A DNA stretch of 64,000 nt, from contig CP106741.1 of assembly GCA_030323305.1 (NCBI GenBank), forward strand, positions 3,905,501 through 3,969,500. Direction: 5' to 3'. The notes under the pieces were generated by a model that was not told the DNA's origin, searched no databases, and saw only the letters and a program-made list of their open reading frames with translations. Positions within the stretch are counted from its first letter, which is position 1. Every line of letters begins with the position of its first letter. A program made the position numbers and the translations under genes. Positions 1 to 61,558 of this stretch are shown here, piece by piece. This DNA is from Paenibacillus sp. CC-CFT747 (GTDB lineage: Bacteria > Bacillota > Bacilli > Paenibacillales > NBRC-103111).

Positions 1-3000
1 ATGGGAGCGGCTCGGATGTGGGCTATTACTTCCCGGGAGGGGCGGACTTGAAAGCCCTTCGCGAAGCCCGGACCGGTTCGCCGGCTGAGAACTCGCACTC
101 CGGTGGAGAGGATACGACGGCCTATACTCGTAACTACGCCGCATTCTGGTATGACCACGGCCGCAGCCCAGGGGCAGATGGCAGCCCCGCCGGCAGCTAT
201 GCGTATACGATTCTGCCGAATCGTGCGCCGGACGAGGTGAAAGCGTATGCGGATGCCCCCGACATCGAGGTGGTGGAAAATACGGCAGACGCCCAGGCTG
301 TCCGGGAGACTACCCTGAACCTGCTGGGCATTAACTTCTGGAAAGACCAGATCAAGCAGGTCGGTACGGTGAAAGTTAACCGCAAAGCTTCCGTCATGAT
401 GAAGGAAAACGGCGATCAGACCCTGGAGGTTTCGATCTCCGATCCGACCCAAGCCAACAGCGGGACGATTGACATGGAGATTGCGAAGGCCGCGAACCCG
501 AACAGCGGGTGGCTCTCGGATCCGGCCATTTCCGTGTATCAAACGTCTCCGACGATCCGGTTCCAGGTGAACGTGAACGGAGCGAAAGGGCAGACGTTCA
601 AGGCCAAGTTCAATCTCGGCAGCGACGTATGGCCGCAGCAGCCTCCGGCTCCCGAGCCGCCGAAGGAACCGGCGAGCTTTACGGACGAACTGAACGATTT
701 CTCCCGGGTATTCTCGCTGTCCGATAAAGCCTCTCTGCTGTTCGATACCGGGAACCCGGCGTTTTTTGCCAATGACAGCTCGCGTGTGAAGCGTTTCGGC
801 ACAGATGTGCCGCAATCACTTGTCTACCAAGTGAACGAGCCCGTTACGTTCTCCGCCCGTCTGCATTACCGGAACGGATTCGCGGATAAGATCAAGGCCT
901 ATGCCTCGCCGGATAACCGCACGTGGACCGCGGTCGCCCTAACTCCGGATACGCCCGTCAAGAATACGGACAACGACTGGTACCGCGCCAATTTCTCTCC
1001 AGCGGGACCCCTGCCGAAGGGCACCCGATATATAAAAATCGAGCTGGGCAACGATCCGCTCGTGTATTCACCTCAGCTTGGCGCGGTCACTTTTACGAAA
1101 TCGCCGATATCGTATGTGCTGGCGGATGATCTGAACGATTGGAGCAAAGCCTACAAGCACTCGCTCAGCTGGGATTTCGATTCGGCTCAGGCGGACACCC
1201 GCTTTGAAGGAGACTACTCCAGACTACGCGCTTCAAGCGAAGGGCAATTTATCGAGTACAAGGCCGAGGAAATAATCGGATTCAAGGTCAAAGGATTCGC
1301 TAATGCGTCCTCGCTGGATGGCCTTCTGAACGTGGAGGTCTCGGCGGATGAACAGAACTGGACACCGGTCCCTCTTACCATTGACGAGCCGGTGCCGACG
1401 GAGGACGGGATAAACAAGTTCACAGTCCTTTCCGACGGGATGCTGCCGGAGGGCTCCTTGTTCCTTCGGGTCCGGCTCGCAAAGAGCGACCCCGTCCGAA
1501 CCGTCGAGCTCGGCTCCCTCGCCCTGGAATTTGGAGCGTTCACCGATCCGCTCGACACGTTCGATAATATGCTCTCTCACGGAGCGAATCTCATGTTCGA
1601 GAAGAACTCCTCCGCCTTTGAGGGCGACCTGTCGCTGCTGAAGCGCAGCGGGACGGACGTTCCCGGCGAGCTGGTTTACTACTATCCGAACATCAGCGAT
1701 TTTGCGGTACAAGCATATGCAAGAGACGGTTTTGCCGGCAAGGTGAGTGTTTATGCCTCGCGTGATGGCAAGCAGTGGAAAGCCGTCGCGCTGACGAACG
1801 ATCCGATCACCACGACGTCATCCGGCTGGAACAAGACGACGTTTCGAGGGGGTCAGAAGCTTGATCCGGGGAATGCGTATCTGAAGCTTGTTCTCAGCAA
1901 TGACGCCCGTGTCTACTCGCCGATGATCTCCCGGCTGACGCTGTACCGGACCCTGGATCCCGACGGTCCGCTTCCGGACCCGGTTGTGGGACCGGCCGTG
2001 ATCGTCGATCCGCTTGACGACTGGAGCGAGAGCGATTCGCATACGACAGGCTGGCAGTTCGACAGCTCGAATGCGCCCTTATTCGGAGGCGATACAGGAA
2101 GACTGAAGCGAAGCTCCGATACGGCGCAATCCGTTATCTACCGCGCTCCCAATCTGGTCGACTTCCAGGTGACCGTTTATCCCTGCGTCGAGCCGCCGGC
2201 CCATCCTCTTGAGCTAGACAAACAGGCCGCCCTGTTCATCTCTTCTGACGGCAAGGCGTGGGCACCGGTTGCCTACACGGCCACGGAGCCTGTCGGCACT
2301 TCCTGCTGGAAAAAGATAAACGTAAAGCCCAAGGACGATCTGCCGGTCGGTACCCAGTACGTCAAAATCGAGCTGGATCACGATTCTCGGGTGTATGCTC
2401 CGCAGCTGGCCGAGGTCCAGCTCATGAGCGACGGAGCCATTTCCAAGCGGATTACCGGATTCTCGCTGGGAGAGGCTCAGAACGGAGAAGCCCAGATCGA
2501 CCTCAGCAGCCGCACCGTGACGGTTCACGTCAAGGCCGGAACGGACATGCGGTCGCTTGCCCCGGCCCTCACCACGTCGGAGAAAACGACAGCTGTTCCC
2601 TCCAGCGGCTCAGTACAGGATTTTACGAAGCCGGTGATGTACAAAGTGACGGCAGCCGACAAAACCTCGGTCAACTGGACGGTTCAAGTTATCCTCGACT
2701 CCGATTCGGTACCCCCGGTTACGACGGTCCAGATGACGGGGGAGCGGGGCTCGGACAACTGGTATGTCACTCCGGTCAGCGTTGGCCTCATGGCAAAGGA
2801 TGAGGCTTCGGGTGTGGACTATACGGAATACCGCCTGGATGGATCGGAATGGACGCGATATGAGGATGCGGTGACGGTCGAAGCCGACGGCGCCCATACG
2901 CTCGATTACCGCAGCATAGACAAAGCGGGGAATGTCGAAGCCGAGCGGCAGGAAGCGTTTCGGATGGATAGAACCGCTCCCGTGATCGATCTTGCCTCGG

Positions 3001-3566
3001 TAAAGGACAGCTACAATGAAGGTGAGTCCTTAACCGTAACCCATGCCGCCTATGACGCAGTTTCCGGTTTACAGTCGGTTCTCGTGCAGCTGAACGGCAG
3101 AGACATCATGCAGGATACACCTGTCCTGCTGACGAAGCCCGGCCTAAACGAAATCAGAATCACGGCGGCGGACGCGGCCGGTCATACGATAACCCAAACG
3201 AAATCTTTTGAAGTATGGGTGCTGGGAACGGCTTCGGCAACGCCGGAAACTATCACCATCAACAACGGCGTCTTTACGATCCGGGTCGATCTCCCGGACG
3301 TTTATAAGGGGACCGGTGTGAAGACGGAGGACATACGGGTGAATGGTTCCGTGATTCCCGAATCCGTTAAGGTTAAGGAAGATGCGGATCATCTGGAGCT
3401 CACCTTAAAAATCAGACGCGAGTCCCTAACCCTCCCGGCAGGCCTGCAAAGCCTGGAAGTAACGGGATGGTTCGAGACCGAGGAGCCGGTTCGTTTCCAC
3501 GCTGCCGCCCCTGTGACAATCCAGGTGGATAGGAAGAATATTCCTATAACCGATATGGAGCGCTAA
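1..3566 (+). CDS. PL8-family polysaccharide lyase, C-terminal part (5' end outside window)
   Basis: The reading frame is open to the left edge, so the GTG at 18 is not a real start. The first ~200 residues match the C-terminal beta-sandwich part of PL8 lyases (hyaluronan, chondroitin AC or xanthan lyases): GYYFP, a YDHG segment, then YAYTILPN and an ENTADAQAVRET stretch ending GINFW. Catalytic residues of this family lie upstream, outside the window. Four copies of a ~150-residue module follow (about residues 216-365, 366-510, 512-655, 665-815), each beginning D-x-L-N/D-D/T-W/F and ending near V/YSPQL. After these come an Ig-like domain (~820-895), an OmpL47-like Ser/Asp-rich domain (~900-990) and a C-terminal beta domain. 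No sortase motif or SLH domain is seen. Substrate cannot be fixed from this fragment. The same module reappears in the GH50-like gene at 53710. Confidence 0.8.
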   Translation, partial: GSGSDVGYYFPGGADLKALREARTGSPAENSHSGGEDTTAYTRNYAAFWYDHGRSPGADGSPAGSYAYTILPNRAPDEVKAYADAPDIEVVENTADAQAVRETTLNLLGINFWKDQIKQVGTVKVNRKASVMMKENGDQTLEVSISDPTQANSGTIDMEIAKAANPNSGWLSDPAISVYQTSPTIRFQVNVNGAKGQTFKAKFNLGSDVWPQQPPAPEPPKEPASFTDELNDFSRVFSLSDKASLLFDTGNPAFFANDSSRVKRFGTDVPQSLVYQVNEPVTFSARLHYRNGFADKIKAYASPDNRTWTAVALTPDTPVKNTDNDWYRANFSPAGPLPKGTRYIKIELGNDPLVYSPQLGAVTFTKSPISYVLADDLNDWSKAYKHSLSWDFDSAQADTRFEGDYSRLRASSEGQFIEYKAEEIIGFKVKGFANASSLDGLLNVEVSADEQNWTPVPLTIDEPVPTEDGINKFTVLSDGMLPEGSLFLRVRLAKSDPVRTVELGSLALEFGAFTDPLDTFDNMLSHGANLMFEKNSSAFEGDLSLLKRSGTDVPGELVYYYPNISDFAVQAYARDGFAGKVSVYASRDGKQWKAVALTNDPITTTSSGWNKTTFRGGQKLDPGNAYLKLVLSNDARVYSPMISRLTLYRTLDPDGPLPDPVVGPAVIVDPLDDWSESDSHTTGWQFDSSNAPLFGGDTGRLKRSSDTAQSVIYRAPNLVDFQVTVYPCVEPPAHPLELDKQAALFISSDGKAWAPVAYTATEPVGTSCWKKINVKPKDDLPVGTQYVKIELDHDSRVYAPQLAEVQLMSDGAISKRITGFSLGEAQNGEAQIDLSSRTVTVHVKAGTDMRSLAPALTTSEKTTAVPSSGSVQDFTKPVMYKVTAADKTSVNWTVQVILDSDSVPPVTTVQMTGERGSDNWYVTPVSVGLMAKDEASGVDYTEYRLDGSEWTRYEDAVTVEADGAHTLDYRSIDKAGNVEAERQEAFRMDRTAPVIDLASVKDSYNEGESLTVTHAAYDAVSGLQSVLVQLNGRDIMQDTPVLLTKPGLNEIRITAADAAGHTITQTKSFEVWVLGTASATPETITINNGVFTIRVDLPDVYKGTGVKTEDIRVNGSVIPESVKVKEDADHLELTLKIRRESLTLPAGLQSLEVTGWFETEEPVRFHAAAPVTIQVDRKNIPITDMER

Positions 3567-3611: not shown

Positions 3612-5006
3612 TTAGGAATCAGCTTTTCCCTCCCTATAGATCTGGCGGAACAAGGAGTCCAGCTCGGCGGGCTCCTCCAAGCCGAGCCAGAAAAGATCCA
3701 TGTCCGCATCCAGATCAAAGGCTTGGTGGAGATCGGAAAAAAGCTCCGTTTCGAAATAATTTTCCTCCATCTGATGCTCCAAAGCATTCACCTGCGACAA
3801 GTAGTCGGAGGAGTGAATGGCTTCGTTAACCGGCCGGATGACCGACAGGTAAGGAGTTCCTTCCGCTATTTTAGCTTGAACGGCCGGTGACAGGGCGGTT
3901 AGGATAAAGGACCTCGCCAGCTCCTTTTTCCGTGCGGCCTCGGGAATCATGAAGCCGTTGGAGCGCAGGATGGTCGCGTTGATGGGACCGAACGGAAGGG
4001 GAGCATACCCGATGTCGAAGGCCATTTTATCCTGGGTCCAGTGGGACACCTCATAGCCGGTTGCCAGAACCATGGCGGCTTTGCCGTAGAAGAACGGATT
4101 TCGTTCGTGGGCGAGACGGTAGAGCAGAGCCCAGCGCTTCCGGTGAATCAAGTCCTGAAGAAACTCCAGCGAGGACGAAATGGTTCGGGACAGCTCCTCC
4201 TCGTTCCCGACTTGCTTTAATCCGTTCTGGAGAGCAACGACCGGCCAGCGCAGCGTTTTCGGCATAATGGCGAACCCGTATTGACGAATGATCCCTTTAT
4301 CATCTGCGAGGGTGAGCCTTTGGGCGGCATCCAGGAAAACCTCCAGGGACCAGTCCTTTCCCGGAAGGGGAACCCCGGAGCGCTCGAACAATGGCCGGTT
4401 GTAGACCAGATGAACGGTAGTAAACATGATGGGGGCCGCCTTAATGTGCCCGTCTACGGTGAAGCGATCGACTAATTTGGGATAAAGCCGCTCCAAGGAA
4501 GACGACAAGGTAAGGTCAAGATCCTCATAAGCCGAATTATTAGAGATCTCGGGGAAATGCATATCCGACAGCAAGATAAGGTCGGGGATAATCCCCATCT
4601 CCATATACTTCTTGATGGATTGCAAGAAGCTTACATTATAAGGCAAGCTGTATATCTTGACCTCCACATTCGGATAACGGACCTTATATTCCTGGATAAG
4701 CGAAGGGAGGATGGTGTCCACGAACGTGGCCGGAGTAGGCGCAAAGATATGCAGCGTTTGAGACGGGGAGCGGTCGATGACAAGCTCGGGATTGACGATC
4801 GTTCCTTGACCGTTCTTCTTAATGACCAGGTTGTCGTTAACCAATTGCTCCAACGCCTTGCGCACCGAATTGCGGCTTAACTCGTAATGCCGGCACAGGT
4901 CGGATTCCGACATCAAAAAAGAACCGGGTTCGATCAAGCCGGACAGGATTTGCTCTTTCAGGTTGTTATAAAATTTTAAATAAACGAACTCATTCTCTCT
5001 TTTCAT
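3612..5006 (-). CDS. GntR-type regulator fused to a solute-binding-protein domain
   Basis: A 464-residue intact protein. Residues ~1-75 form a GntR winged helix-turn-helix (SESDLCRHYELSRNSVRKAL, then a wing ending GQGTIV). Residues ~84-464 resemble an extracellular type-2 solute-binding protein (SBP_bac_1/8): it contains YPNVEVKIYSL, IPDLILLS, VYNRPLFERSG and a C-terminal helical tail. There is no signal peptide or lipobox, so the binding domain is cytoplasmic and presumably acts as the ligand sensor in place of the usual UTRA or FCD domain. It is divergent from the CBM-propeller gene at 5300, the obvious target. A second protein of the same build and length lies at 60168-61558. DNA-binding role is confident; the ligand is unknown. 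Confidence 0.85.
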   Translation of the reverse strand: MKRENEFVYLKFYNNLKEQILSGLIEPGSFLMSESDLCRHYELSRNSVRKALEQLVNDNLVIKKNGQGTIVNPELVIDRSPSQTLHIFAPTPATFVDTILPSLIQEYKVRYPNVEVKIYSLPYNVSFLQSIKKYMEMGIIPDLILLSDMHFPEISNNSAYEDLDLTLSSSLERLYPKLVDRFTVDGHIKAAPIMFTTVHLVYNRPLFERSGVPLPGKDWSLEVFLDAAQRLTLADDKGIIRQYGFAIMPKTLRWPVVALQNGLKQVGNEEELSRTISSSLEFLQDLIHRKRWALLYRLAHERNPFFYGKAAMVLATGYEVSHWTQDKMAFDIGYAPLPFGPINATILRSNGFMIPEAARKKELARSFILTALSPAVQAKIAEGTPYLSVIRPVNEAIHSSDYLSQVNALEHQMEENYFETELFSDLHQAFDLDADMDLFWLGLEEPAELDSLFRQIYREGKADS

Positions 5007-5071: not shown

Positions 5072-5100
5072 TTGTCAAGAACCTAACCTCCCTCTATAAT
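5072..5100 (+). promoter_or_regulatory. Sigma-A promoter of the CBM-propeller gene
   Basis: TTGTCA (5072-5077), 17-nt spacer, TATAAT (5095-5100). The arrangement and flanks are almost identical to the promoter at 7984-8012. The leader to the start at 5300 is ~190 nt. Confidence 0.8.
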
Positions 5101-5108
5101 TACGGTAT

Positions 5109-5143
5109 AGGTTAGATACAGCTAAAGAATAGGTGGAGATACA
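5109..5143 (+). promoter_or_regulatory. Paired direct-repeat operator
   Basis: AGGTTAGATACA (5109-5120) and AGGTGGAGATACA (5131-5143) start 22 bp apart, about two helical turns, directly downstream of the -10 box. CTAACCT in the promoter spacer (5083-5089) is the inverse of AGGTTAG. The same pair at the same spacing is found at 8021-8055. Likely sites for the adjacent GntR fusion protein (inference). Confidence 0.6.
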
Positions 5144-5184
5144 TACCTCTTTTATACCTCAAATTATCTAAAGATTCAACATCC

Positions 5185-5299: not shown

Positions 5300-7846
5300 G
5301 TGAACGGAAACAGCGCAAAGGACAAAAGGAGCTTCCGAAAATGGGCCGTCCCGATAATGTCGGTTCTATTGGCGTTCTCCGGCATGGGGGACAGGGCTTC
5401 CGCATCGGATATCCCTGTCAGCAATTTCGGCTTTGAGCAAGCTCTTGCTGACTGGACCAAGTTTGTGGACAAGGACAATGGAAACGACGTGGACGAGCAG
5501 GGCAGCAGGATCGAAGTGACGGATCGTCAAGCGAGCGAGGGCGAGCACAGTGTTCGAATATACGACGCCAAAAAATCCCGGGCGATCGGATTGGAGAGCG
5601 GGAAGCTGGAGGCTCAAGCGGACACGGCTTATGTTGTCTTTGCCGATGTTCGGGTCGAGAGCGGAGAGGCCGAATTGTCGATCCGGTTTTATGACGGCAG
5701 CGGCCGGATGCTTGTAGAATCGTCTACGACCGCCTCTCCTTCGGAATCCTGGAAAACCATCCAGGTTAATGGGACAGCCCCTGCAGGAGTATCTTATGCG
5801 AAAATCCTGCTGCATTCCAGCAAATCCAATGAGGGAACAGCTTATTGGGACCATGTCCGGTTTACGAAGGATTACACCAATCTTGGCGTACAGGTGGGGA
5901 GCGCGGCACCCCTGGGGGCCACCTTTGGAGCGGGAGCCCATGAGAACCTGATTTATTCGGTTATTACGGGCAATGCAAACGATCGTCCCATCATGCAAGT
6001 GATCGATGCGAATACCGAAAAGGTGACGGCAAGCGAAGCTTTACCGGGTGCGAGCGTGAATCCTACCGGTGCCTGGGCCGCAACGACGGCTACGGACGGA
6101 ACAATTTACCTTGGTACCTATCCCAACGGCAGATTACAAGTACGTGGAGGGAGAGTCGTCCATCGCGGATCTGGGCCAGCCTTTGCCAGGGGAATCTTAC
6201 GTCTTCGATCTCGCGGCGGGTAATAACGGTAAGGTCTATGGCGGTTCTTACGGAAGAGCGGGCTTCTTTGAGTATGATCCGGCTGCAGGGGCCAAACCGA
6301 TAGGAGGCTTTCCCTTCTACCAGCCCCCGGGACAAACGTATAAGTATCTCCGGGCCTTGGCCCATGACAAGGAACGCAACGTTTCTTATTTGGCTATGGG
6401 GCCGAACGCCTCCATCATTCGATACGACCATGCCACCGGCCAAATGGACGATATTTTGCCTGCTAAATACAAATCCATTACGCTGGCCGGTACGGTGGAT
6501 TTCACAGGCGACCGTGTCTTTGTGGCGATCGGCGGGTATATGATGGCTTTGCGGGTGGATGTCGGCCCGGATGGAACCGTCACTTCGACGGAGGAGATGT
6601 CGACGACGGGCACCGCGCCTCGTGTATCGCCGGAGAATAACGGAAGCGTGTACTTCACCAAGGGGAACCAATTGACCCGTTACGATATGGCGTCCAAGCA
6701 AGTAACGGATCTCGGGCTTTCCATTCCGGGGAGGATTCAGCGTTACGGCTGGGTAACGTTACAGGATCAGGCGAATTATCCGGGAAAAACGCTTGTCGCT
6801 CTGTCGGACGGAAATTATGAGACGAACCTCATCAAATACAACCCGCAAAACGGAGCGTTCCATGTTTCGCGCGTTGAAGGTTCCCCGCGTATAGCCGGGG
6901 CGATTAATATGATCGGGGCGGGGCCTGACGGCCAGATCTATACCAGCGCTTACTTGTACGGGGGACTAGGCGTCTACCATCCGTTCGGCGGGGATTCCAA
7001 CGACAACCAGCCAGAGTACATTTATGCACCGATCAGCCAAATTGATAAAATGGAATCCGCGGGCGGCAAGCTATATCTTGGCACCTATCCCGGAGGAGGG
7101 CTGTATGAGTACGATCCTAAGCAGCCTTGGAGTCCGGGGTCAATCCCAAGCTCTTGATCAACTCGGGCGCCTACCAGCAGAACAGGCCGAAAGCGATCGC
7201 TTACGGGGACAATCGGGTATTTATGGGGACGGCCGGTACTACCGGGTCGAGACCGGGAGCCTTGTCGGTCTATGATTACACGACAGGCCACGCTGCCGTC
7301 CATAAGGATATCGTAAAAGACCAGAGTATTATAGCCCTTGCCTACTATAACGGTCTTTTGTACGGCGGATCCACGATCCGGGGCGGCTACTCGAGCACGC
7401 CGTCACAGACAGAAGCCAAGCTGTTCGTGTATGATCCGGTAACCCAGTCGAAGACGGCCGAATACAGCCTGCCGGCCATAGAAGGCGGGAGGAAGCTGAC
7501 CGCGATTACGGAACTGAAGCTCATTGACGGGAAATTGTGGGGCTTCGCGGAAGGCTATCTGTTTGTGTTCGATCCGGAATCCCGTGCGTTCGAGTACTTC
7601 GCTGAGAAGTTTCCGGATGTGTCGCTCCCGGAAGGGAATTATCGGGATGCCGACCTCGTTGCCGTTGAGAAGGACCCGAACTCCCTATATGGAACGATTG
7701 GCAGCAAGTATTTATTTAAAATTAATAAAGCGGATAAAGCGATAACAATTCTGCGGTCCGACGGTGCGGATATGCTGGCGGCCGACCCAATCGGCAACCT
7801 GTATTTTAAACATAACGATACTCAATTGTGGAGATATTCCTTTTGA
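5300..7846 (+). CDS. Secreted CBM + beta-propeller protein (propeller 1)
   Basis: GTG start with AAGGAGGAG 6 nt upstream; ~849 residues if restored. A signal peptide (~residues 1-36, ending near RASA) is followed by a CBM4/9-like jelly roll (~40-190) and a beta-propeller built of blades with the pattern GTYPNG / GGSYGRAGFFEYDP. A conserved late segment reads YDPKQPW, NPK, then QNRP (codons at 7178-7189). Frame breaks: near 6135 (two bases short) and in the G-run at 7136-7139. Sequence continues across both. Three relatives sit in this window (9766, 17966, 61807). Its position behind a dedicated regulator and beside lyase genes suggests an extracellular carbohydrate-binding or lyase role, since known ulvan and oligogalacturonate lyases also use propeller folds; activity is not shown by sequence. 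Confidence 0.7.
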
Positions 7847-7983: not shown

Positions 7984-8012
7984 TTGTCAATTGTTAATCC
8001 TCCCCCTATAAT
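7984..8012 (+). promoter_or_regulatory. Sigma-A promoter of the catabolic operon
   Basis: TTGTCA (7984-7989), 17-nt spacer, TATAAT (8007-8012), followed by GCGGTATAGGT. It is a near copy of the promoter at 5072-5100. It likely drives the operon beginning at 8203. Confidence 0.8.
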
Positions 8013-8020
8013 TGCGGTAT

Positions 8021-8055
8021 AGGTAAGATACAGCAGTAGAACAGGTGAAAGTACA
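8021..8055 (+). promoter_or_regulatory. Paired direct-repeat operator (second copy)
   Basis: AGGTAAGATACA (8021-8032) and AGGTGAAAGTACA (8043-8055) again start 22 bp apart, as at 5109-5143. This predicts co-regulation of the secreted propeller and the downstream operon. Confidence 0.6.
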
Positions 8056-8202: not shown

Positions 8203-9689
8203 ATGGCCTCATACCAGCATGTGAATTCGAGCTTCGCCGATGTGAAGCAGTTCGGTGCCGCGGGCAACGGTGCCGTTGACGATACGGAGTCGGTACGACT
8301 AGCCTTGGCCTCCATTCCGGACGGAGGCACGGTCTATTTTCCGCCTGGTACCTATCGGATTACCCGATCCATTGAAATCCTTTCGGACAAGGTATGTCTC
8401 TGCGGTCAGGGCAGCGGCTCCCACCTCCTATACACCTATGAGCAGCAGGATGGCGACATTCCTCTAACGGCAAGCTTGTTCGTCTTTCGGGAAGGAATTC
8501 GTAACGTAACCATTCGAGATCTGCGGCTGGAATATGCAGGGTTCTTCTACTCCGAATGCGGACAAAGCTATCTCGGCAAGGTGGACGCCTTACGATTCCG
8601 GCAATGCTTTGATGTAAGCATCGAGAATATCGAGGCGTCGGGCTTTAATGCCAGCGCCATCACCGTGAGTACGGGAGACGCCTCGAAATATGCCAAGCGG
8701 TTCCACGTTCATAAATGCTACCTTCACCATAATCGGGTCGCCGGGGTGTTATTTGGGAATGTGGAGCGGCTCAGCATCATGGACTGTGATTTGGAGTATC
8801 AGGGCTCTCCGCCCGATGGAGGGACGGGGTATGGTTGCGCGGGTTTCAGCGGGAGCTTCCCCGTCATATCCAAATTATCGGCAACCGGGCTTGCTTCAAT
8901 TACCGAAAAGGCATTGATCTGCATGCAGGAATCGGGGCGATCATCGAAGGGAATATATGTCATGGGAATCGCCTCTATGGAATCTATACGGAGGGAGCGA
9001 GGACGGGCAACGTCATTATCCGGGGCAATCTAATATCCGGCATGAAGGTGGACCGCCTGGACATACCGGACCCGTATACCTGGATCAGCGGCATCGATTT
9101 TGGCCCGTATTCCGCTGCTTTGCTTCCCGAGGAATATCACAATTACCTGATAGAAGGCAACGAAATTGTCGATTTTGGTTTAAATCACGGATCGGCCTAT
9201 CCGATTCGTTGTTATTTTAATTTCAAACGCGGAATGATTCAGATCAAGAACAATAAGATGGCGGCGGGGAGGATTACTCATTTGATCCATCTGCACAATT
9301 CATCGGGCAAGGAGCGGAGGGAAGTCCAATTAGACATCTCCGGCAATCAGGCCTTCATCCGGCAGGCCACCGGGTATTGTTTTAATCTGCCCATGTGCAG
9401 CCAACTCAACATTCACGGCAATCAGATTACTATTGAGCAGAGCGCAAAACGTGAGGGGATCATCGCACTTAGCGAGGAGTGTCTGGAATCCGTCACGATG
9501 ACAAACAACCATTTTACGGTGCCGGATTTGTCAGCCGCCAGTGCTTTGAAGGATTGGACGGAGCCATGGCTTCAAGACAAGATGTATAAAGCGGGCAACT
9601 TCCTGAACGGAAGGCTGGAAGAATCCCACTTGCGATATCCCGGAGCCGGATTAGGCAGTCCTTACAGGCAGGTTTGTGATACAAGTTAA
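8203..9689 (+). CDS. Right-handed beta-helix protein (pectate-lyase-3-like)
   Basis: ~495 residues; ATG after AAAGGGGAAG. The N-terminus has the pectate-lyase-superfamily signature: VKQFGAAGNGAVDDT, then GGTVYFPPGTYRI. Repeating Asn-rich turns (IRDLRLEYAG, IEGNEIVDFG, ISGNQAF, IHGNQITI) continue to the end as expected for a parallel beta-helix. There is no signal peptide, so it should be cytoplasmic and act on imported oligosaccharide. Frame break at the GG of 8833-8834; helix repeats continue on both sides. It is the first gene of the operon driven from 7984. Reaction (lyase, hydrolase or epimerase) cannot be told from the fold. Confidence 0.75.
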
Positions 9690-9765
9690 CCAACCAAGTC
9701 AGCTGTTTTATAGGTTAGGATGCTATCCCATCAGACTGCTCCTAGGAGCAAGAGGAGGAATACCG

Positions 9766-11553
9766 ATGATTTCGCAAACGTCTTACTCGCTTGTTGGCCA
9801 GCCGTGCCGTAATTTTACGATTTTCAACTATTGCTCAATGGTTGATCCCTGGGACGGAAGAGAGAAGCTGGTCTTATCCAATTTTACGCCCGGCGGAATT
9901 GGGCTCTTGGTCTTTATCGACACGCTGACCGGAGCCGGCGAATCGTTCGAGCTTCCGGGAGATTCGGGGGCGTGGGGACTCGTCAATTGGCGCAATGAGA
10001 AGCTGATTGTCGGCACCTGCCCGCAATATGCTTACCTGCACAGCTTTGATTTGCGAACGCGTACGTGGGCGGAGCCGCTGAAGGCGGAAGGCGAGACTTA
10101 CTTCTGGGACATCGTGGAAGGCTCGGACGGAATGATCTATGGAGGAACTTATCCGAACTGCTCCCTTATGAGATACGATCCGCACAATCATGTGCTGGAG
10201 AACCTGGGGCGGGTGTCGGATAACTCCAAGAATCTGTACAGCCGGTATCTGCACGGGGAGCTTCCCGGGTATATCTTGATCACCTACGGCTACGATTCGG
10301 AGGATGTCAAAGCCTTTCACATCGAAAGCGGAACCTTCCGGGAATTCGGAATGCCGGGCTATCGGATCCGGGAAGCGCATGAGGAGCTTCTGGCCCTGGA
10401 GAAGGAGGGGAGCTGGTCTTCTACAATCCGCAGTCCTTCGAACGCCTGGTGGACGCGGACGGGCTTAAGCAGCGGCTCATTCCCGGGAAATTACGCTTCC
10501 GAACGGAAAGCCCATCGGCATCAAGAAGCTGTCCGGAGGACGGATCGCAGGGGTGCGAGGCCAGGATTATTTTATTCTGGATCATCCGGGCCAAGAAGTT
10601 GAGCTGAAGAAGATTCCGACCGACGCGCCCCCTACCGCCATTCACGAATTAATTGTGGATGAGGAAGGAAACATCTGGGGCTGCTGCGGGTTAGGGCAAA
10701 CCATCTTCTCCTACGATCCGGCAAGCGGGGAGTACTGGAACTCCTCCGCGGTAACCGATGTGGGGGAGAGGTGTACGGCATGCGGTTCGCCGGAGGCCGT
10801 CTGTTTCTATCCGCTTATGTGGGCGGGGACCATATCGTCTACGATCCGAAGCTGCCTTGGGATCAATTGTACAATAACAATCCGAAAACCCTTCGCCCGG
10901 TCCGTCCGGCTTTCATACGGCCCGAAGGGCGCAGCGTAATCGGACCCGACGGTGCTTTCTGGACCGGCTGGTCGGCCAAATACGGCACCTACGGAGGAGC
11001 CCTCTCCCGGGTAAATACGGATACGCTGGAAGTGGAGCATTGGGCTGACCCCGTTCCGGAGCAGCAGGTTTGCGGCTTGACCTCGGACGACCGGTATCTC
11101 TACTTCACCACCAACGGAGGAGCAAGCGGGCTCGGCTATAAGAACGAGCCCTGCCATTTCGGCGTCTGGTCTCCGGATAAGGGCTTGGTGCACCTGCACA
11201 CCTTCGAGCCCGATGTTGTGACGGGCAACGCCGTTCTGGCTGATGGGGACCGGGTCTTCGTCGGAGCGGGCCCAAGCGTCCGCCTCTTCGATCCCGCGTC
11301 GATGAGCTTTATCTCCGAGATGGCGATTGATGAGCCCTGCAGCTGGATGATCCGGCTTAACGATGCCCTAATCGGCGTATTCAGCGGAAGCCGCTTGCTT
11401 CTGATGAGCCGGGACGACCTGTCCATCGTGAAGACCATTCCGCTCCCGGGCCGGGTGAGGACGGCCGTTATCGCCGGAAAGGAGCAGTTGTATTTTGCTG
11501 TAGAAGCCACGATTTACCGGTTTGAACTGGAAGAGTTGCTTTCTGGCGGGTGA
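9766..11553 (+). CDS. Cytoplasmic beta-propeller protein (propeller 2)
   Basis: ~596 residues. The ATG at 9766 is chosen because GAGGAGG lies 8 nt upstream; the open frame starts earlier but overlaps the previous gene. There is no signal peptide. Blades include GGTYPNCSLMRYDP and SAYVGGDHIVYDP, then the family segment KLPW...NNPK...RP. Three frame breaks in G/C runs: 10407-10410, ~10511-10513 and 10762-10766; restoring one base at each gives a continuous protein. It is of the same length and order as propeller 3 at 17966, so it is probably a paralogue. Function unknown; likely acts on intracellular oligosaccharide. Confidence 0.65.
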
Positions 11554-11621: not shown

Positions 11622-13257
11622 ATGAAGATGAAGAGGGTTCCGTCAGTCCTGATCACCACTATGGTTATAGGGGCCATGCTATCGGCTTGCACCGGCAATG
11701 GCTCGTCTCCGTCCGCTTCCGACAACGCTCCATCGGCCACATCCAAAGAGAAGCCTAAGCTCACGATGTTCTTCAATAACGCGGGTCTCCAATCTCCGGC
11801 GGATGTGGATCTCAGTAACAATGAATTCATTAACATCGTTAAGGAAACGGCCGGGGTGGATCTCAAGATGGAGACCGTCCCCTACGCCGAGTACCAAACC
11901 AAATTCAATCTGATGCTGTCCTCCGGCGATCTTCCCGACATCCTGCATACCAACTATCCCGAGCCTGCCTACAAAGCCGCGCGCGATGGAGCCTTCATCG
12001 ATCTGAAGCCGTATTACGACAAGTCTCCGATCCTGCAAAAGCTGGTTACCCCCAGATGATGGAGCTGGCGAAGGATCCGGTCAGCGGCAAGAACTGGCGG
12101 ATCCCGATGGTGTACGACAAAGGACCGCAGGGCTCCGGAGTCATGGCCCGGGCCGACCTGCTCGATAAGTACAACGGGGGAAGTGGCCCGAATCCGTTGA
12201 GGAATGGGTAGACGTGCTCCGCAAAATCAAGAAGGCGGAGCCGGATTCGATTCCGATGTCCAACCGGGTTGTCGGGGATTACATGTTCCGGTACGGCGGG
12301 GCGGTGTTCTTCATGCTGTACGGGGCCGACCCCTATGGATACCGCATCCAGGACGGCAAGATCATCCCGAACGTCGTGCTTCCCGAGTATAAGGCTGCCG
12401 TAGAGCTATACCGCCAGCTTTATGCGGAAGGCATTTTTGACAAAGAGTTTGCCACGACGGACGGTGCCAAATGGGCAACCAAATGGAAGGAAAAGAACGT
12501 TCTGTTCCAATGGAATTCGGCCGATCAGCTTATGCCCGGGGCCGCTAGACTGGTAGCCTTGCCGGGTACCGATATTGCCGATAAGAATGCACGGGTTGAA
12601 TTCGCTCCCGCTCTGAAGAAATATCCGTCCGTTCTGAAGGACCCGAAATATGCGCAAAATACCCTTAACGACCCGATTGTCGATCACGGGCTTTACATCT
12701 CGTCGAAGAGCAAAAACCCGGATGCGGCCTTTAAGGTCATTGAAGCCTTTGCGTCCGACAAGCTACGGGAAGCGATCTTCTGGGGCAAGGAAGGCGAAAC
12801 CTACACAATGAAGGACGGCAAGCGCATCCCGATTGCCGAGAAGCTTGGTGCCGATAGCCGCAGATGGGTGAAATCCATGGCCTTCCTGTTCGGCTATACG
12901 GATGGACAGGATGCGCAGCTGGCGACGTACGAGCAGCAAATGGGCCCCGACAAGTACAAGAAAGCCTATGACAGTGTCAAAGCGCTTGGAGAGGAAGCGA
13001 AGGCGAACGGCCTGGGCTCCATTGTCGGCTACTCGACCCCCGATGAAGTGGTCAAGAAGAATTCGGAAATCATGCAGGACATCAACCGGTTCACGTCCGA
13101 AGCCATTATGGGCAAGATCACCATGGACCAGTTCGATGGGGAAGTCAAGAAGTGGGAAGCCAAATACAGAAGCCTCAAATATGACCCGATGCAAAAATAT
13201 ATCGATGCCAACAAAGAGAAGTTGAAAGGGCTGAATGTTAAAAAGGTGACTTGGTAA
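11622..13257 (+). CDS. ABC importer solute-binding lipoprotein (LplA-like)
   Basis: ~545 residues. Signal peptide with lipobox LSAC at residues ~23-26, then a Ser/Pro-rich linker and a family-1 solute-binding domain (the LplA/YtcQ group found with LplB-type permeases). Captures an oligosaccharide at the cell surface for the permeases that follow. Frame breaks: C-run 12050-12054 and G-run 12176-12180. Between them the third frame reads straight through, so all three pieces are one protein. Confidence 0.85.
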
Positions 13258-13278: not shown

Positions 13279-13305
13279 CGGGGTGAGCGGATTCCCGCCG
13301 CCCCG
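13279..13305 (+). promoter_or_regulatory. Intercistronic hairpin after the binding-protein gene
   Basis: CGGGG (13279-13283) pairs with CCCCG (13301-13305) around an inner GCGG/CCGC stem with loop ATTC. There is no T-run. Such hairpins commonly stabilise or partly terminate after the abundant binding-protein mRNA, giving more binding protein than permease. A similar one is at 40683. Confidence 0.5.
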
Positions 13306-13348
13306 GAATGGCCCCTTCGTAACAGGACCCGTACAGGAGGTGACCGGA

Positions 13349-14302
13349 TTGAATGGAGTCGTGGCCGGCGTCGAAAAGCAGGCTGCCGTGAAGAAAGGAA
13401 GACACCGCAAATTCAAGCTCAAAACCATGCTTTCCTTGTATACCTTATTTGCACCGACCGCCATTCTGCTGTTTATCTTTCATTACATTCCCATCTACGG
13501 CATCATTATCGCCTTCAAGAAATATTCGGTATACAAAGGCATCATGGGCAGCGAATGGGTCGGCCTGGCCGAATTCAAGTATTTTCTAACGGATGAAAAG
13601 TTCTGGAATGTGTTTCGCAACACGCTGATACTGAACGTCTACGATATCCTGTTCGGCTTTACAGCCCCTATTGTATTCGCCCTGCTGGCCAATGAATTGT
13701 ACAGCCGCGTCTTCAAGCGCGTCATGCAGACGGTGTCTTACCTGCCGCATTTTTTATCGTGGATCGTCGTTTCGGGTGTGTTTTACAGCTTCCTGTCCCC
13801 GGAAACGGGCCTGTTCAATCAGGTCATCGAATGGTTCGGCTACCAGCCGATTTATTTTATGACGGAGACGGGCCTATTCCGAGGGATTCTCGTTTTTGCG
13901 GATATTTGGAAAGGGGTAGGGTGGTCGGCGATCCTCTATTTCGCGGTGATTGCCGGAATCGACAGCTCCTTGTACGAAGCGGCCTGGATCGACGGGGCAA
14001 GCCGCTGGAGGCAGGCGATCCACATTACCATTCCCCACATGGCCCCGATGATCACGCTCTTGTTTCTTCTGAGATTGTCCAGTATTTTCTCGGTCGGCTT
14101 CGACCGGGTGTTTCTGCTTCAGAATCCGCTGGTCTATAAAGTTTCGGACGTCATCAGCACCTACATTTACCGGATCGGACTGGAGCAATCCCAATATAGT
14201 CTGTCTACGGCGATCGGGCTGACCCAAAGCATACTAGGCTTCGTTCTGCTGGTAACCGCCAATCGGATATCCAAGAAGCTGTCCGGCATGGGACTTTATT
14301 AG
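13349..14302 (+). CDS. ABC permease, LplB type
   Basis: ~317 residues, intact. The TTG at 13349 is chosen because AGGAGGTGA ends 5 nt upstream. About six membrane segments; the EAA loop reads YEAAWIDGASRWRQ followed by IPHMAP. It pairs with the YtcP-type permease that starts 16 nt downstream to form the channel for the lipoprotein-bound sugar. No ATPase is encoded nearby, so a shared MsmX-like ATPase is presumably used. Confidence 0.9.
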   Translation: MNGVVAGVEKQAAVKKGRHRKFKLKTMLSLYTLFAPTAILLFIFHYIPIYGIIIAFKKYSVYKGIMGSEWVGLAEFKYFLTDEKFWNVFRNTLILNVYDILFGFTAPIVFALLANELYSRVFKRVMQTVSYLPHFLSWIVVSGVFYSFLSPETGLFNQVIEWFGYQPIYFMTETGLFRGILVFADIWKGVGWSAILYFAVIAGIDSSLYEAAWIDGASRWRQAIHITIPHMAPMITLLFLLRLSSIFSVGFDRVFLLQNPLVYKVSDVISTYIYRIGLEQSQYSLSTAIGLTQSILGFVLLVTANRISKKLSGMGLY

Positions 14303-15227: not shown

Positions 15228-16977
15228 ATGAATCCATCCCTACCGAGAATGGCCAAGGTGGGTTTGCTGCTGGACCAAGGGGCGTCTGAGCGCAGGTGGC
15301 GGCACGGGGTCAACGTTTTTGAATTTTATCTGGAGGAAGTGCTGGCTCACGGGGGATTCCTTATGAGGTGCTGACCGGCGTGCAGACCATTGACACCTCC
15401 TACGATGTCATTGTGGCGGCGGTGGCCGGAGAAGACGCGGAGACCGCCGCCATCCTGTGGAGCTATATGGAGCAGGGCGGTACGGTGATAGCCTATGGGA
15501 ACCTTCAGGTCATGGCGCCCAAGCTGTCCGCTTTACCGGTTGGAAACACCGGACCCGGTTACTATCGCCCGGGCGGGGCTTATCCGAAAGCGGAAAGGGT
15601 CCGCTTCCACAATGCCCGGCCTTGGAAGGTGGAATCCGATCCGGACAGCGATGTGATTAGAGAAGGAGTCCTGCTTAAGGGACAGCCGAACGGGGAAGAA
15701 GCCGGCGATGCCCTGCAAAGCTTCCCGGTTGGTTCGGGTTCCCTGGATCGTTGGGCGGTCGACGTCGGGGAGACGATCGTGGCCTTCCAGCAGGGCTCGA
15801 GACCGGTATGGGAAGACGGCTTTCCGGCACCGGACGGGTCGGCCTTGGTCAATGAAGGCATTCTGAAGGCGGACGATCAGATCGAGCTTAGCTGGGAGTG
15901 GGACCGCACCCTCACGGAGACGGGCAACCCGTATTTCGCGAAGCCGTACGGGGATTATTGGCGCGAGATGGTGATCGGCCATCTGTTGAAGAAGGTCGTG
16001 AGCCTGGGGCTGACGCTGCCGTTCATCGGCTATTGGCCGGACGGAGTGGAGCAGGTGGCTTTACTCTCCCACGACAGCGATATCAATGAGGATGAGCACG
16101 CCTGGTCCACCTTGGAGCTCTTGAAGGAATGCGGGGTCAAGAGCACCTGGTGCATGCTGGAGCCCGGATACGGCCCTGACGTCTACTCGAAAGTTAAGGA
16201 AGACGGCCATGAGCTGGGCTTTCATTATAATGCGCTTGCCCTGGACGGAGGGAGATGGGGAGAGGACGAATTCAACCGGCAGCTGGATTGGCTGAAGGAG
16301 GAAGCCAAGCTTGAGAAGGTGACCTCCAACAAAAACCACTATACCCGCTACGAAGGCTGGGGAGAGTTTTACCGGTGGTGCGAGGAGCGGCAGATCGAAG
16401 TCGATCAAACGAGAGGACCGAGTAAGAAAGGGAACGTCGGCTTCCTCTTTGGCACATGCCAGCCTTACTTCCCCATCTCGTGGGCGGACGAGAATAACCG
16501 GCTCTATCCGGTGCTGGAGATCGGCTTTCTGACCCAGGATATGGACTGCCATCCTCTATGGGCCGATTCCAGTATCATTGTTCCTTTCCTGGAAGGGGTC
16601 CGGGAAGTGGAGGGGTCGCCCATTTCCTCTTCCACCAGTTTCATATCCATACGAAAGAGCCGGTTCGCGAAGCGTTCCGCCAGGTGATCTCGGAAGCCAG
16701 AAACCGGGGCTTTGCCTTCTGGACGGCCGAACAGATCAACCGGTGGTACCGCAGCCGCAGGGAGATGTCTGCTAGGATTGGCCAGGATGGGCAGCTTTCC
16801 ACATTCGGCGCTATTCAGCCCGATGCCGTTATTTGGATTCCGTTAGCCCCCGATCAAGCGGCGATTGCGGCCGAACGGGTGTTTTCCCGATTTGGCGTTC
16901 CGTGTTTGAAGAGGGTGGCTGCCGATTTGCCCCAGACGGAAGAATCGCAAACCACGAAAACACAGAATGTCTCCTAA
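15228..16977 (+). CDS. Polysaccharide-deacetylase-like protein
   Basis: ~583 residues, ATG after GGAAGAG. Residues ~45-110 look like a glutamine-amidotransferase-like flavodoxin fold (YDVIVAAVAGED, GGTVIAYGNL). Residues ~270-480 resemble a NodB/CE4 domain: SHDSDINEDEHAWSTL stands where the metal-binding Asp motif is expected, and GHELGFHYNAL where the His motif is expected. No signal peptide is seen, so it would act on imported sugars, for example removing N-acetyl groups before the NagB homologue. Frame breaks at G-runs 15351-15355 and 16612-16615. CE4 membership is likely, activity unproven. Confidence 0.65.
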
Positions 16978-19756: not shown

Positions 19757-22700
19757 ATGAGTCTTTCAGCATCAGCGGTAATCAAACAGGCCCGGTCCTT
19801 CTACACGGACGAGAAGATCGCCGCTGCCCGAAAAAATATCGAAACGCATCCCTGGGCGAAGGAAGCCTGCCAAGAGGCGGTTGCTGCGGCGGAGTTGTAT
19901 TTACAGGACGGCCATGACGGCCTTTGGGAGCTCGTCACCACCCAAAACCTTCCGCGCAGCTACGGGGTGAACCAAGTAAGGGGCTGTCCGGTGTGCAAGA
20001 AGGACATCGACCGGTTCGGCAATTATCCGTGGCTCACCGATTCGGCGAATGCTCCTTGGAAGGTCACCTGTCCTAGCTGCCGCACGGTTTTCCCTCCAAT
20101 GATTTCGGGGCTTACTACCGGAGCGGAATCGACGAGCATTCCCGCTTCGATCCGGCACGCGCGGACCGAAGCCTGCTGACCAATACCTTGTATCCGGACC
20201 GGGACGAGAACTGGTGCGTCGATGACGGCTACGGCTGGCTGGACCCCGGTCATGATCATCCCGAAACCCGCCGGTACACCTTCATCGCTTATTACAACCA
20301 TTATCATTTATGGTATGGAGGAAGAATTGCGAAGGCCCTCGAAGCATTCAGCCAAGCTTACTTATACACGAACGACTCCCGTTACGCGGCCGCCGGAACC
20401 ATCCTGCTCGATCGGATCGCCGACGTCTACCCGGATATGGATTCTTCCGTTTATCTGTGGAAGGACGGCTTCCGAAATTCACACGGCTTGACGGGCCTTG
20501 GCAAAATAGTGGGGAGCATTTGGGAAACCGGTCTTGCGGCCAGCTTTGTTCTGGCTTACGACGCTCTGTTTCCGGGAATGGATTCCCCCGAAATTACCGC
20601 TTTTCTGAGCTTGAAAACCAAGCAGTACCCGATGCTCGGGGAGAAAGATTCCGTCGAGGCGGTCCGGCGCAATATCGAGCAGGGCATTCTTATGCAGGTA
20701 AAGCCGGCCATCGAGGCCGGACAGATTCTCGGCAATGTCGGCATGCACCAAAGCGCGCTCGCTTTGGCGGCCGTCGTGCTGGACCATCCTACCCTTACGA
20801 AGGAATGGATCGATTTTCTATTTGAAACCCATGAACGAAAGGGAAGACCGTTAGGCAACATTCTGACCATTCTCGTCAACGACGTGGACCGGGACGGACA
20901 TGGCGACGAAGCCTCGCCGGCTTACAACAGCGGCTGGCTGGGGAATTTAAAGCTCGTAGCCGATGCTTTAAGCGGACAGGGAGAAAGGGTTCCTCTCGAT
21001 TTGTACGATTACCCCAAATTCCGAAAGCTGTTTCACATGCTTACCCCGTATGTGATGCTCGGTAAGTACACGCCATCTATCGGGGATACGAAGCGTGCGG
21101 GAGACCCCGGCATTATCGGGAGCGCGGATTTGTATGTCTCGGGCTTCGCCAAAACCGGTGACCCTCTGCTGGCCCGGTTCGCCTACTTCCTGAACGGGAA
21201 CCAATGGGAGGGGTTGCGGGGAGATATCTTCACGGATAATGAGGCGGTCCTGGATGAAATGAAGAAGGCGGTGGACCGGCACGGACCCTTCGAGCCCGGA
21301 AGCTGCAATACGACCGGTTACGGCTTTGCCGCCCTGCGGGACGGAAAAGGAGATTTCGAGCGGGCCTTGACCCTATACTACGGGCGAAACACGGGGCATG
21401 GGCATAAGGACACGTTGAACATCGGAATATACGCCTATGGCATGGATCTGTCTCCCGATCACGGCTATCCGTGCTTTGCGGACGGCAATTATGAGAGAAA
21501 GAGGTGGACGATCAACACCATCTCGCACAATACCGTGGTGGTGGACCGCTCCCCTCAATCCAATCAGGTTGTCGCCGTTCCTCATCATTTCGAAGGAGGG
21601 GCCCAGGTTCAGCTGATCGATGTGGAGGCCCCTCAGGTGTATCCGCATACCCGGCTTTACCGCAGGACGACCGCCATGGTCCGGGTGGATGACGAGGCCT
21701 CGTACTTACTCGATCTTTTCCGGGTGAAGGGCGGATCGGAGCATCTTTACAGCTTTCATGGACCGGAAGGCGAAGCTCTTGCCGAAGGTCTTCAATTAGA
21801 AAAGCAAGCTGCCGGGACCTATGCCGGTGAAATGATTGCTTATGCCGACCCGGAGTATGATATGGCTTCGGAAAGCGGGTTTAACTATCTCTATGACGTG
21901 GAGCGGGACAGCAGCCCGCCTTCCGGTTATTCCGTGGATTGGAAGGCCAAGGATACGTGGGGCGTGAAGTCGGTAAGCGAGGACGTCCATCTGCGCCTGA
22001 CGATGGTGTCGGCGGTCGATGAAGTGATCATAGCCCAGGGCGAGCCTCCCCAGAACAAGCCGGGTAACCCCAAAAGCTATACCTATATGCTCGCCCGGCG
22101 GGAAGGCGAAGCTCTGGAAAGCCAGTTTGTCTCGGTGCTGGAGGCATATAAGGGAGAGAGCCGAATTAAGAGGGTGGAAGCGGTGGCGGTTAAAGCCGAA
22201 GGGGAGCTGTCCGTGGGCTGTGACGCCGCTGCCGTGAAGATAACTTTCGCGAACGGGCGAACGGATTATCTTTTCCAAGCCCTGCATTCCGATAAGCTTT
22301 ACGTCGTCGATGATTTCGTGGAGGTAAAAGGGTTTTTCGGCATGTGCTCGATCGTTAACGGTTCCCCCACATATGGATACGTCTGTGACGGTACCATACT
22401 CCGTGCCGGAGGAAGCACGCTTATCGATAGAAGCTATGCGGCGTTGACGGGCAGCGTAACCGGATTTACCAAGGACTTGTCACTGGAGAATGAGATCAGC
22501 GTGCATCTGGACCAGCCCATAGACGATATCCGGTTGGGGCGCGGCTATATCTATATTCAGAACGATGGAATACGCAATGCGGCTTATGAATTCACAAGCC
22601 TTAAGCCCTATAAGGATGGAGGCCTGGTGGTGGAGATCGGTGACGTCACTACGATCCGGGCCTGGGCGGACAAATACGATTTTTCCCGCGGGTATGAGTA

Positions 22701-22764
22701 CGACCTTCAAGAAGGGGATCCCTTCCGAATTCCTCTTTCCTACGAGTGGAGGGCGGAAGAATGA
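19757..22764 (+). CDS. Heparinase II/III-family lyase-like protein
   Basis: ~1002 residues, no signal peptide. N-terminal part has paired CPVC / CPSC motifs around YPWLTDSANAPWK, then an alpha-toroid rich in Tyr/Trp (YNHYHLWYGGRIAKAL). The C-terminal heparinase II/III beta domain includes GHKDTLNIGIYAYG and TISHNTVVVD, the His region of the family. Such enzymes cleave uronic-acid glycosidic bonds by beta-elimination. Cytoplasmic location suggests exo-action on imported oligosaccharide. Frame break near 20098 (AA where AAA is needed). Its stop overlaps the next start as ATGA, implying translational coupling. Confidence 0.8.
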
Positions 22765-60167: not shown

Positions 60168-61558
60168 CTAGCTCAGCAGCGCTTCCAGCCGTTCGCTGGC
60201 TTCGGCTTCATCCTCCAGCCGGGACCAGTAGGCCTTCAATTCCTCCCGGACAGCCTCCAGAACACCGGTGCTGAGATTCAAGTCCGAATACAGCCGGCAG
60301 CGGTCCCACAGCTCCCGATAGACGGATTCCCCTTGAGGGCGGTTTCCCGCTAACCCGTTCTTCAGGCTCAACGCTTCCCGATGGGCAGGCAAGGTAAGCG
60401 TGTGGCGACGGACATCGGCCTGGACCTCCGCCGAGCAAAGGTAGCGGACCAGCTTCCGCGCTTCCTCCTGGTGGGGCGTCAGCCGGTTGACGGCCAAGCC
60501 TGTCGTCAGAAGAAGGGTGTCGTCCGAACGGAGAGCGGGAAGGGGAGCCACGCCGTAATCCAGCTCCGTATCGAGAAACCGGTTCAAGCCGAAATAGGTC
60601 GTCAGGATCATGGCGGCTTTCCCTTCCTTAAACCAGCGCTCCACATCCTCATCGCTTTCCGTCCAGAGAACCGGCCCGCCTTGCTGGTGAATCAAGTCGC
60701 GGGAAATGCGCAGGCTGTCCCAGAAGGCCGGATCCTCGGCTGCCCGCTGGCCTTCCCCGTGCTGAAAGCGGAAGCTGTTCTGCAGAAGAAACACGGGCCA
60801 GCGGTTGACGGACTGAATATGAGCGCCGAAGCCGCGCACCTCCAGCTGCCGGTGAAGGGTTCGGGCGGTTTTGAGAAGCGTATACCAGGTCCAGCCCGCA
60901 TGCGGGGCTTCCATCCGGCACTGCTCGAAATGCTTCCGGTTGTAGCACAGCACCACGGGGGAGAAGACAAAAGGGGACGCTTTCGATCCTCCGCCTTCCT
61001 CCAGGAAGGGCTTGGCGAGAAGGGGATGGGCATATTCGGTTTCCGGGGCTTCCGACAAAAGCGAGAGCGAGGCATCCTTCTCTTTCTGTTTAAGGGCATC
61101 CCACCCCGTTACGGTTACGACATCCGCCATCCCAAGATCGGCATAATCGAGTGGGAAAGGGGCGGGAAGCAGCTCGATTGTCGTGCCCGGGTGCTGCCTT
61201 TCGTATTCGGACACGGCATGCTGCAGCCTTCCTTCCTTGATCAGGGAGGGTAGCAGGCGAGCCGCAAGACAAGGTCTTCCTTCCTGCCGTCAGAAGAAGT
61301 CTCCGGACTTCCGGACGATGGGGCTGACAGCCGGACTTTGTTGCCCACCCGCCGGATTTTGACGATCAGCCCTTCCTCCACCAGAACATCCAGCGCCTTA
61401 CGGACCGATTCCTTGCTCAAGGAAAAAATCCGGCCCAGTTCCACCTCCGAAGGAAGATAATCCCCCTCTTTGCGTGAGCCGCTCCGGATCTCTTCTTTTA
61501 TGTAGGCGATTAACTGCTGGGTCCGGGCCATATATTCGCTTCGGTTGGGACGCGGCAT
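60168..61558 (-). CDS. GntR-type regulator fused to a solute-binding-protein domain (second copy)
   Basis: ~463 residues once a single base is restored near 61248-61250, matching the 464 of the copy at 3612. N-terminal winged helix: YLPSEVELGRIFSLSKESVRKAL, wing to GNKVRLS. The C-terminal domain is solute-binding-like: IKEGRLQHAVSEYERQHPGT, ADVVTVTGWDAL, VVLCYNRKHFEQ, EGKAAMILTTYFG. No signal peptide. Divergent from the CBM-propeller gene at 61807, just as the first copy is divergent from propeller 1. Confidence 0.8.

Follow-up and report, generated by a model that had tools for sequence, protein, structure and literature searches.

The gene at positions 3612 to 5006 of the 64,000-nucleotide stretch of Paenibacillus sp. 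CC-CFT747 analysed here (the window) encodes a GntR-type winged helix fused to a solute-binding protein (SBP) domain, and its product is probably a cytoplasmic one-component repressor of a divergent propeller gene and of an importer operon, induced by an imported oligosaccharide. The idea of such a sensor is already known from AraR, SgrR, and the LysR-type regulators; the local regulon is the main addition and is well supported, and the predicted operator, with the core GGTATAGGTWAGATACA, is new here. The predicted operators, which were absent from the first-pass annotation of this DNA, constitute the strongest functional evidence.

The regulator protein

The regulator and its two domains were assigned as follows.

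3612..5006, minus strand: GntR-SBP one-component regulator, 464 aa, intact, ATG start (open reading frame list, Pfam, AlphaFold2, pN/pS)
4794..4979, minus strand: GntR winged-helix domain, aa 10-71 (PF00392, E 7e-13)
3873..4709, minus strand: SBP_bac_1 (type-2 solute-binding) sensor, aa 100-378 (PF01547, E 8e-15)

The first-pass annotation had proposed a winged helix joined to a type-2 solute-binding fold, and both halves of this description were confirmed. The winged helix, at the N-terminus as in the GntR superfamily, matched PF00392 at 48.4 bits (cut-off 27), and the sensor matched PF01547 at 56.1 bits (cut-off 26); a second SBP family, SBP_bac_8, was also found (E 2e-10), all three matches exceeding their Pfam gathering scores. 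The best NCBIfam matches of the winged helix were regulators of the TreR/HutC type, and matches to HutC and MocR families were confined to this domain. Neither UTRA, FCD, an aminotransferase domain, nor a LacI-type (type-1) sensor was found on the regulator by Pfam at E <= 0.001, and the LysR family and the SgrR_N and SBP_bac_5 pair gave no Pfam match.

An AlphaFold2 model of the regulator, built from 54 fusions (pLDDT 93.2, pTM 0.86), recovered the SBP fold, which in the model extends past residue 378 to the C-terminus, and the claim was thus not refuted by structure prediction. Foldseek comparison of the model with the PDB returned SBPs, such as 5f7v, 6rjy, and 1eu8, at TM-scores (target) of 0.73-0.77. 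All 50 of the 50 PDB matches listed were importer-type binding proteins, the majority for oligosaccharides; they include the cycloalternan-binding Lmo0181, the arabino-oligosaccharide-binding AbnE, and binders of trehalose/maltose and of maltose, and some bind glycerophosphodiesters or dinucleotides. A profile search with the sensor agreed with Foldseek, finding 5f7v at E 1.5e-40.

The absence of a signal peptide, also claimed earlier, held: neither a signal peptide, a membrane segment, nor a long hydrophobic stretch was found in the regulator, and a lipobox was missing from the first 60 residues of all 114 fusion open reading frames examined, against its presence in 54 of 67 comparison SBPs from the same genomes. 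Intracellular sensing by the SBP domain was judged plausible.

The gene neighbourhood

Most of the genes around the regulator are split in the window, and their full lengths were taken from G001, a nearly complete conspecific genome.

5300..7846, plus strand: secreted CBM/propeller-type gene, divergent from the regulator; one 849-aa open reading frame in G001, split by frameshift in the window
8203..9689, plus strand: right-handed beta-helix (pectate-lyase-like) gene (PF12708 and PF13229); 495 aa in G001
9676..11553, plus strand: second propeller (SGL-like) gene; 626 aa in G001
11630..13257, plus strand: importer SBP lipoprotein (PF01547, synteny); 545 aa in G001, start in the window approximate
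13283..14302, plus strand: ABC permease (BPD_transp_1), followed by a second permease of 291 aa in G001
15368..16687, plus strand: last gene of the predicted operon, of the 'cluster 15' family; 583 aa in G001, weak Polysacc_deac_1 match

The order of the predicted operon in G001 is beta-helix protein, second propeller, SBP, two permeases, and the 583-aa gene. The regulator had been described as divergent from a CBM-propeller gene; the divergent propeller gene was upheld, but the CBM match fell below threshold (CBM_4_9, E 0.008). Convergent to the regulator in G001 is a gene for a PL8 polysaccharide lyase of 1935 aa, the C-terminal part of which occupies positions 18-3566 of the window, and farther away are genes for a GH88 protein, a GH130 protein, a GDSL esterase, and another importer. 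A heparinase II/III-like protein is encoded at 20188-22764; with the PL8 lyase it marks a larger polysaccharide-use region. The protein encoded at 51336-53687, considered as a possible AraC-siderophore-SBP fusion, proved to be a Cache-AraC protein.

Over the aligned part, the window differs from G001 by 113 indels, 101 of them single-base. These look like assembly errors, since the single-base indels that split the genes are absent from G001; that the neighbours are true pseudogenes is unlikely, given that they are intact in G001 and that most of the indels are single-base.

Promoters and predicted operators

Two promoters on the plus strand, each followed by a predicted operator, lie in the intergenic regions.

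5072..5100, plus strand: promoter 1, TTGTCA-N17-TATAAT, before the divergent propeller gene; 11 of 12 consensus bases
5104..5120, plus strand: predicted operator 1, GGTATAGGTTAGATACA, 3 bp past the -10 box, from the motif over subfamily-A upstream regions
5126..5144, plus strand: possible secondary half-site, AGGTGGAGATACATACCTC, from comparison of the two intergenic regions
7984..8012, plus strand: promoter 2, TTGTCA-N17-TATAAT, before the beta-helix, propeller, SBP, and permease genes; 11 of 12 consensus bases
8016..8032, plus strand: predicted operator 2, GGTATAGGTAAGATACA, 3 bp past the -10 box, the second exact match in the window

The shared element was first seen by side-by-side reading of the regions upstream of regulators of subfamily A, the branch of the fusion family to which this regulator belongs (see below). 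Gibbs sampling of 18 such regions gave a 22-bp motif with a score of 265, compared to 178-190 in eight dinucleotide shuffles, and nearly all of its credible sites shared the divergent operon's strand. The motif presumably resembles the GTAT-type sites of TreR and NagR/YvoA. It forms an imperfect, approximately 11-bp direct repeat and not a clean palindrome, and a repeat search of the intergenic regions found no long inverted repeat; direct-repeat sites have been described for some GntR proteins (PMC4494728).

When each locus was scored by a PWM built without that locus and its near relatives, predicted operator 1, the sequence of which is unchanged in G001, was matched at 21.0 bits (position 5102), and 13 of 16 subfamily-A loci had a match in the roughly 200 bp that precede the regulator; the subfamily-B loci had eight matches in 1.0 Mb. 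No operator site was found in locus L100 by this scoring, and the match lies before a different gene in two loci, one for a sugar-isomerase-like protein in L035 and one of 'cluster 15' in L039. Operator 1 had been used to define the search pattern, and operator 2, which precedes the importer operon, is an independent prediction not used in its design. Across the 6.3 Mb of G001, the core pattern is matched perfectly at exactly two positions, both in the regulator's locus, and a narrower pattern matched the window exactly twice, at 5104-5120 and 8016-8032; 0.06 window matches would be expected at up to three mismatches. Sites with one mismatch in G001 lie before a 'cluster 15' gene and before another CBM/propeller gene. 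This arrangement of promoter and operator recurs in three other loci (L032, L034, and L040), where the first genes behind it are unrelated, and a counterpart of the possible half-site AGGTGGAGATACATACCTC is present behind predicted operator 2.

The 'cluster 15' family itself is recurrent and has no confident Pfam match (L030:6064-7767, L039:14783-16492, and a member in L179); in each of these three loci its gene lies directly behind a subfamily-A operator match. With subfamily B, Gibbs sampling of 69 upstream regions revealed no credible common site; where so many paralogues differ in specificity, this is unsurprising. Counting of dyads upstream of all 99 fusions was set aside, as the only motifs it recovered were common to near-identical species. 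Separately, the dyad ATAAACT-N11-AGTTTAT was observed near the regulator start in six subfamily-B loci (L076, L088, L090, L091, L095, and L097) and is possibly the operator of these relatives, the species being closely related.

Proposed mechanism and alternatives

Presumably acting as a dimer, the regulator would bind with its GntR winged helix to the GGTATAGGTWAGATACA sites directly behind the two -10 boxes and so block both the divergent propeller gene and the operon of beta-helix, propeller, SBP, and permease genes. Secreted enzymes would release an oligosaccharide, to be taken up whole by the CUT1-type importer of the operon; the regulator's own SBP domain would then close on it, and the resulting change in helix geometry would release the operator. 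Given an importer operon coupled with an importer-type sensor, we infer that the inducer is the imported, uncleaved oligosaccharide, and the nearby genes for the PL8 lyase and the GH88 protein suggest that this ligand contains uronic acid.

Repression is proposed because the sites overlap the expected transcription start, where a protein on the DNA would stand in the way of RNA polymerase. A ligand-dependent activator, which when liganded would instead recruit the polymerase, would show the same sites and the same regulon, and some regulators with a type-2 fold, those of the LysR family, are generally known to activate. However, a position downstream of the -35 and -10 boxes is typical of repression, and promoters this near to consensus need little help, which makes an activator unlikely.

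For the oligosaccharide-induced repressor, the sensor should still bind a solute. It could instead have lost this function and serve only in dimerization or in contact with a part of the transporter; residues fixed in the fusions and rare in other SBPs, among them R253, Y175, F182, F195, and W440, include four (R253, Y175, F182, and W440) that might serve subunit contacts. R253 is present in 54 of 54 fusions and in 1% of other SBPs. Against this, the full SBP fold has been kept at high confidence, and the sensor columns that align with the ligand contacts of MalE, in a mapping that rests on a distant alignment, tend to vary more than the median sensor column between paralogues, as expected for differing ligands, with the invariant R253 adjacent to them. 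The gene is, moreover, under strong purifying selection in the comparison with G001 (pN 0.0028, pS 0.085, pN/pS approximately 0.03), and loss of solute binding is considered quite unlikely. Finally, the pairing of motif and regulator is itself a prediction and the genome encodes other GntR proteins, but it is very improbable that the regulator acts on nothing beyond its own gene and that the motif is that of a different regulator, as the motif follows subfamily-A regulators through differing operon contexts and its exact genome matches flank the regulator.

Distribution and origin of the fusions

The 6.22-Mb host genome contains approximately 10 GntR-SBP fusions, several of them frameshifted in the assembly. 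In G001, there are 35 GntR and 113 SBP_bac_1 matches, and pairing of the domains by coordinates identified 11 proteins that carry both; four of the 113 SBP_bac_1 matches sit in open frames that are about 1000 aa long. A second copy, implied by the first-pass annotation, is real: located at 60168-61510 on the minus strand and assigned to subfamily B, it is frameshifted in the window and intact in G001 as a GntR and SBP_bac_1 protein of 467 aa. There it is divergent from a 1262-aa open reading frame, the window counterpart of which starts as a CBM/propeller-type protein.

The proposed search for the same two-domain build elsewhere found fusions in many other genomes. A single peptide pattern, run against species genomes, picked out 170 related stretches, the bulk of them in Paenibacillus and Cohnella, with further matches in Thermoactinomycetaceae, Heyndrickxia, Hydrogenibacillus, and metagenome-assembled genomes of Clostridia. 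About 100 full-length fusion open reading frames were recovered, the window species' own copies included; one search added some 85 to the 11 of G001, the majority from relatives of Paenibacillus. Under a strict threshold, a fusion is present in 93 of the 298 genomes sampled from the order and in 4 of the 398 sampled from the phylum, all four in the same class; with four to five candidates scored in each genome, the counts for single genomes are minimum values. A homologue on a Mesobacillus plasmid lies directly behind SBP and permease genes.

In a tree of the SBP parts (60 rows), quickly built and with the root not inferred, 31 fusions were separated from 29 ordinary SBPs by a branch with SH-aLRT support of 99, and within the fusion clade were distinguished subfamily A, which holds the regulator (support 100), and subfamily B (support 91). 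All tested fusions thus form one clade apart from the lipoprotein SBPs, so that a single capture of the SBP domain followed by expansion is likely and is the simplest reading, with a second capture conceivable. That the sensor arose when the SBP of the operon was recently duplicated was rejected, given that this SBP is not the nearest relative of the sensor and groups with other SBPs.

Comparison with known regulators

In LysR-type regulators, a winged helix is likewise combined with a sensor of the type-2 periplasmic-binding fold, but theirs is another HTH family and a much smaller sensor. SgrR of Escherichia coli also joins a cytoplasmic HTH to an importer-type SBP domain (SgrR_N and SBP_bac_5); it differs in both HTH and SBP family, and profile comparison with the fusions shows no useful similarity. 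Homology was rejected, only a 34-column HTH stretch having aligned, at 1% probability. AraR of Bacillus subtilis pairs a GntR winged helix with a periplasmic-binding-protein-like sugar sensor and serves carbohydrate use in Firmicutes, but that sensor is of the LacI/GalR type (type-1) (PMC4494728), unlike the type-2 SBP_bac_1 domain described here. The annotation's view of how unusual a captured sensor of this kind is was not supported, in light of these precedents and of the frequency of the build itself, which is common in Paenibacillales and accounts for 11 of the 35 GntR matches in G001.

The HutC/UTRA regulators TreR and NagR/YvoA are closest in the winged helix, but their sensor is UTRA, of the chorismate-lyase fold, and not an SBP. 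The CUT1 importer SBPs (Lmo0181, 5f7v; AbnE, 6rjy; MalE) share both fold and sequence family with the sensor, whereas they are exported as lipoproteins or to the periplasm and the fusions form a separate clade without export signals. None of the recognized GntR subfamilies, FadR, HutC, MocR, YtrA, AraR, and PlmA, has an SBP_bac_1 sensor (PMC4494728), and no characterized GntR-SBP fusion was found in the open-licence literature; the GntR-SBP_bac_1 regulators are apparently a large, unstudied family. We lean toward regarding them as a distinct, undescribed GntR subfamily, in which a single capture of an oligosaccharide-importer binding domain would have given rise to intracellular oligosaccharide sensors that expanded to about 10 in a Paenibacillales genome, every one paired with an operator and a polysaccharide locus of its own.

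Significance

At least one fusion is misnamed: the homologue on the Mesobacillus plasmid, L183:3196-4614 (WP_121614118.1), is called an extracellular solute-binding protein in RefSeq despite its GntR helix, and others may be as well. Should the proposal be correct, Paenibacillus-type soil bacteria would sense whole imported oligosaccharides inside the cell, not phosphorylated monosaccharides, with the same fold catching the oligosaccharide outside the cell and sensing it within. The fusions would then lend themselves readily to testing how a winged helix can be driven by a two-lobed binding protein, and would supply natural biosensor scaffolds for oligosaccharides, and the regulons of many uncharacterized polysaccharide loci would become predictable.
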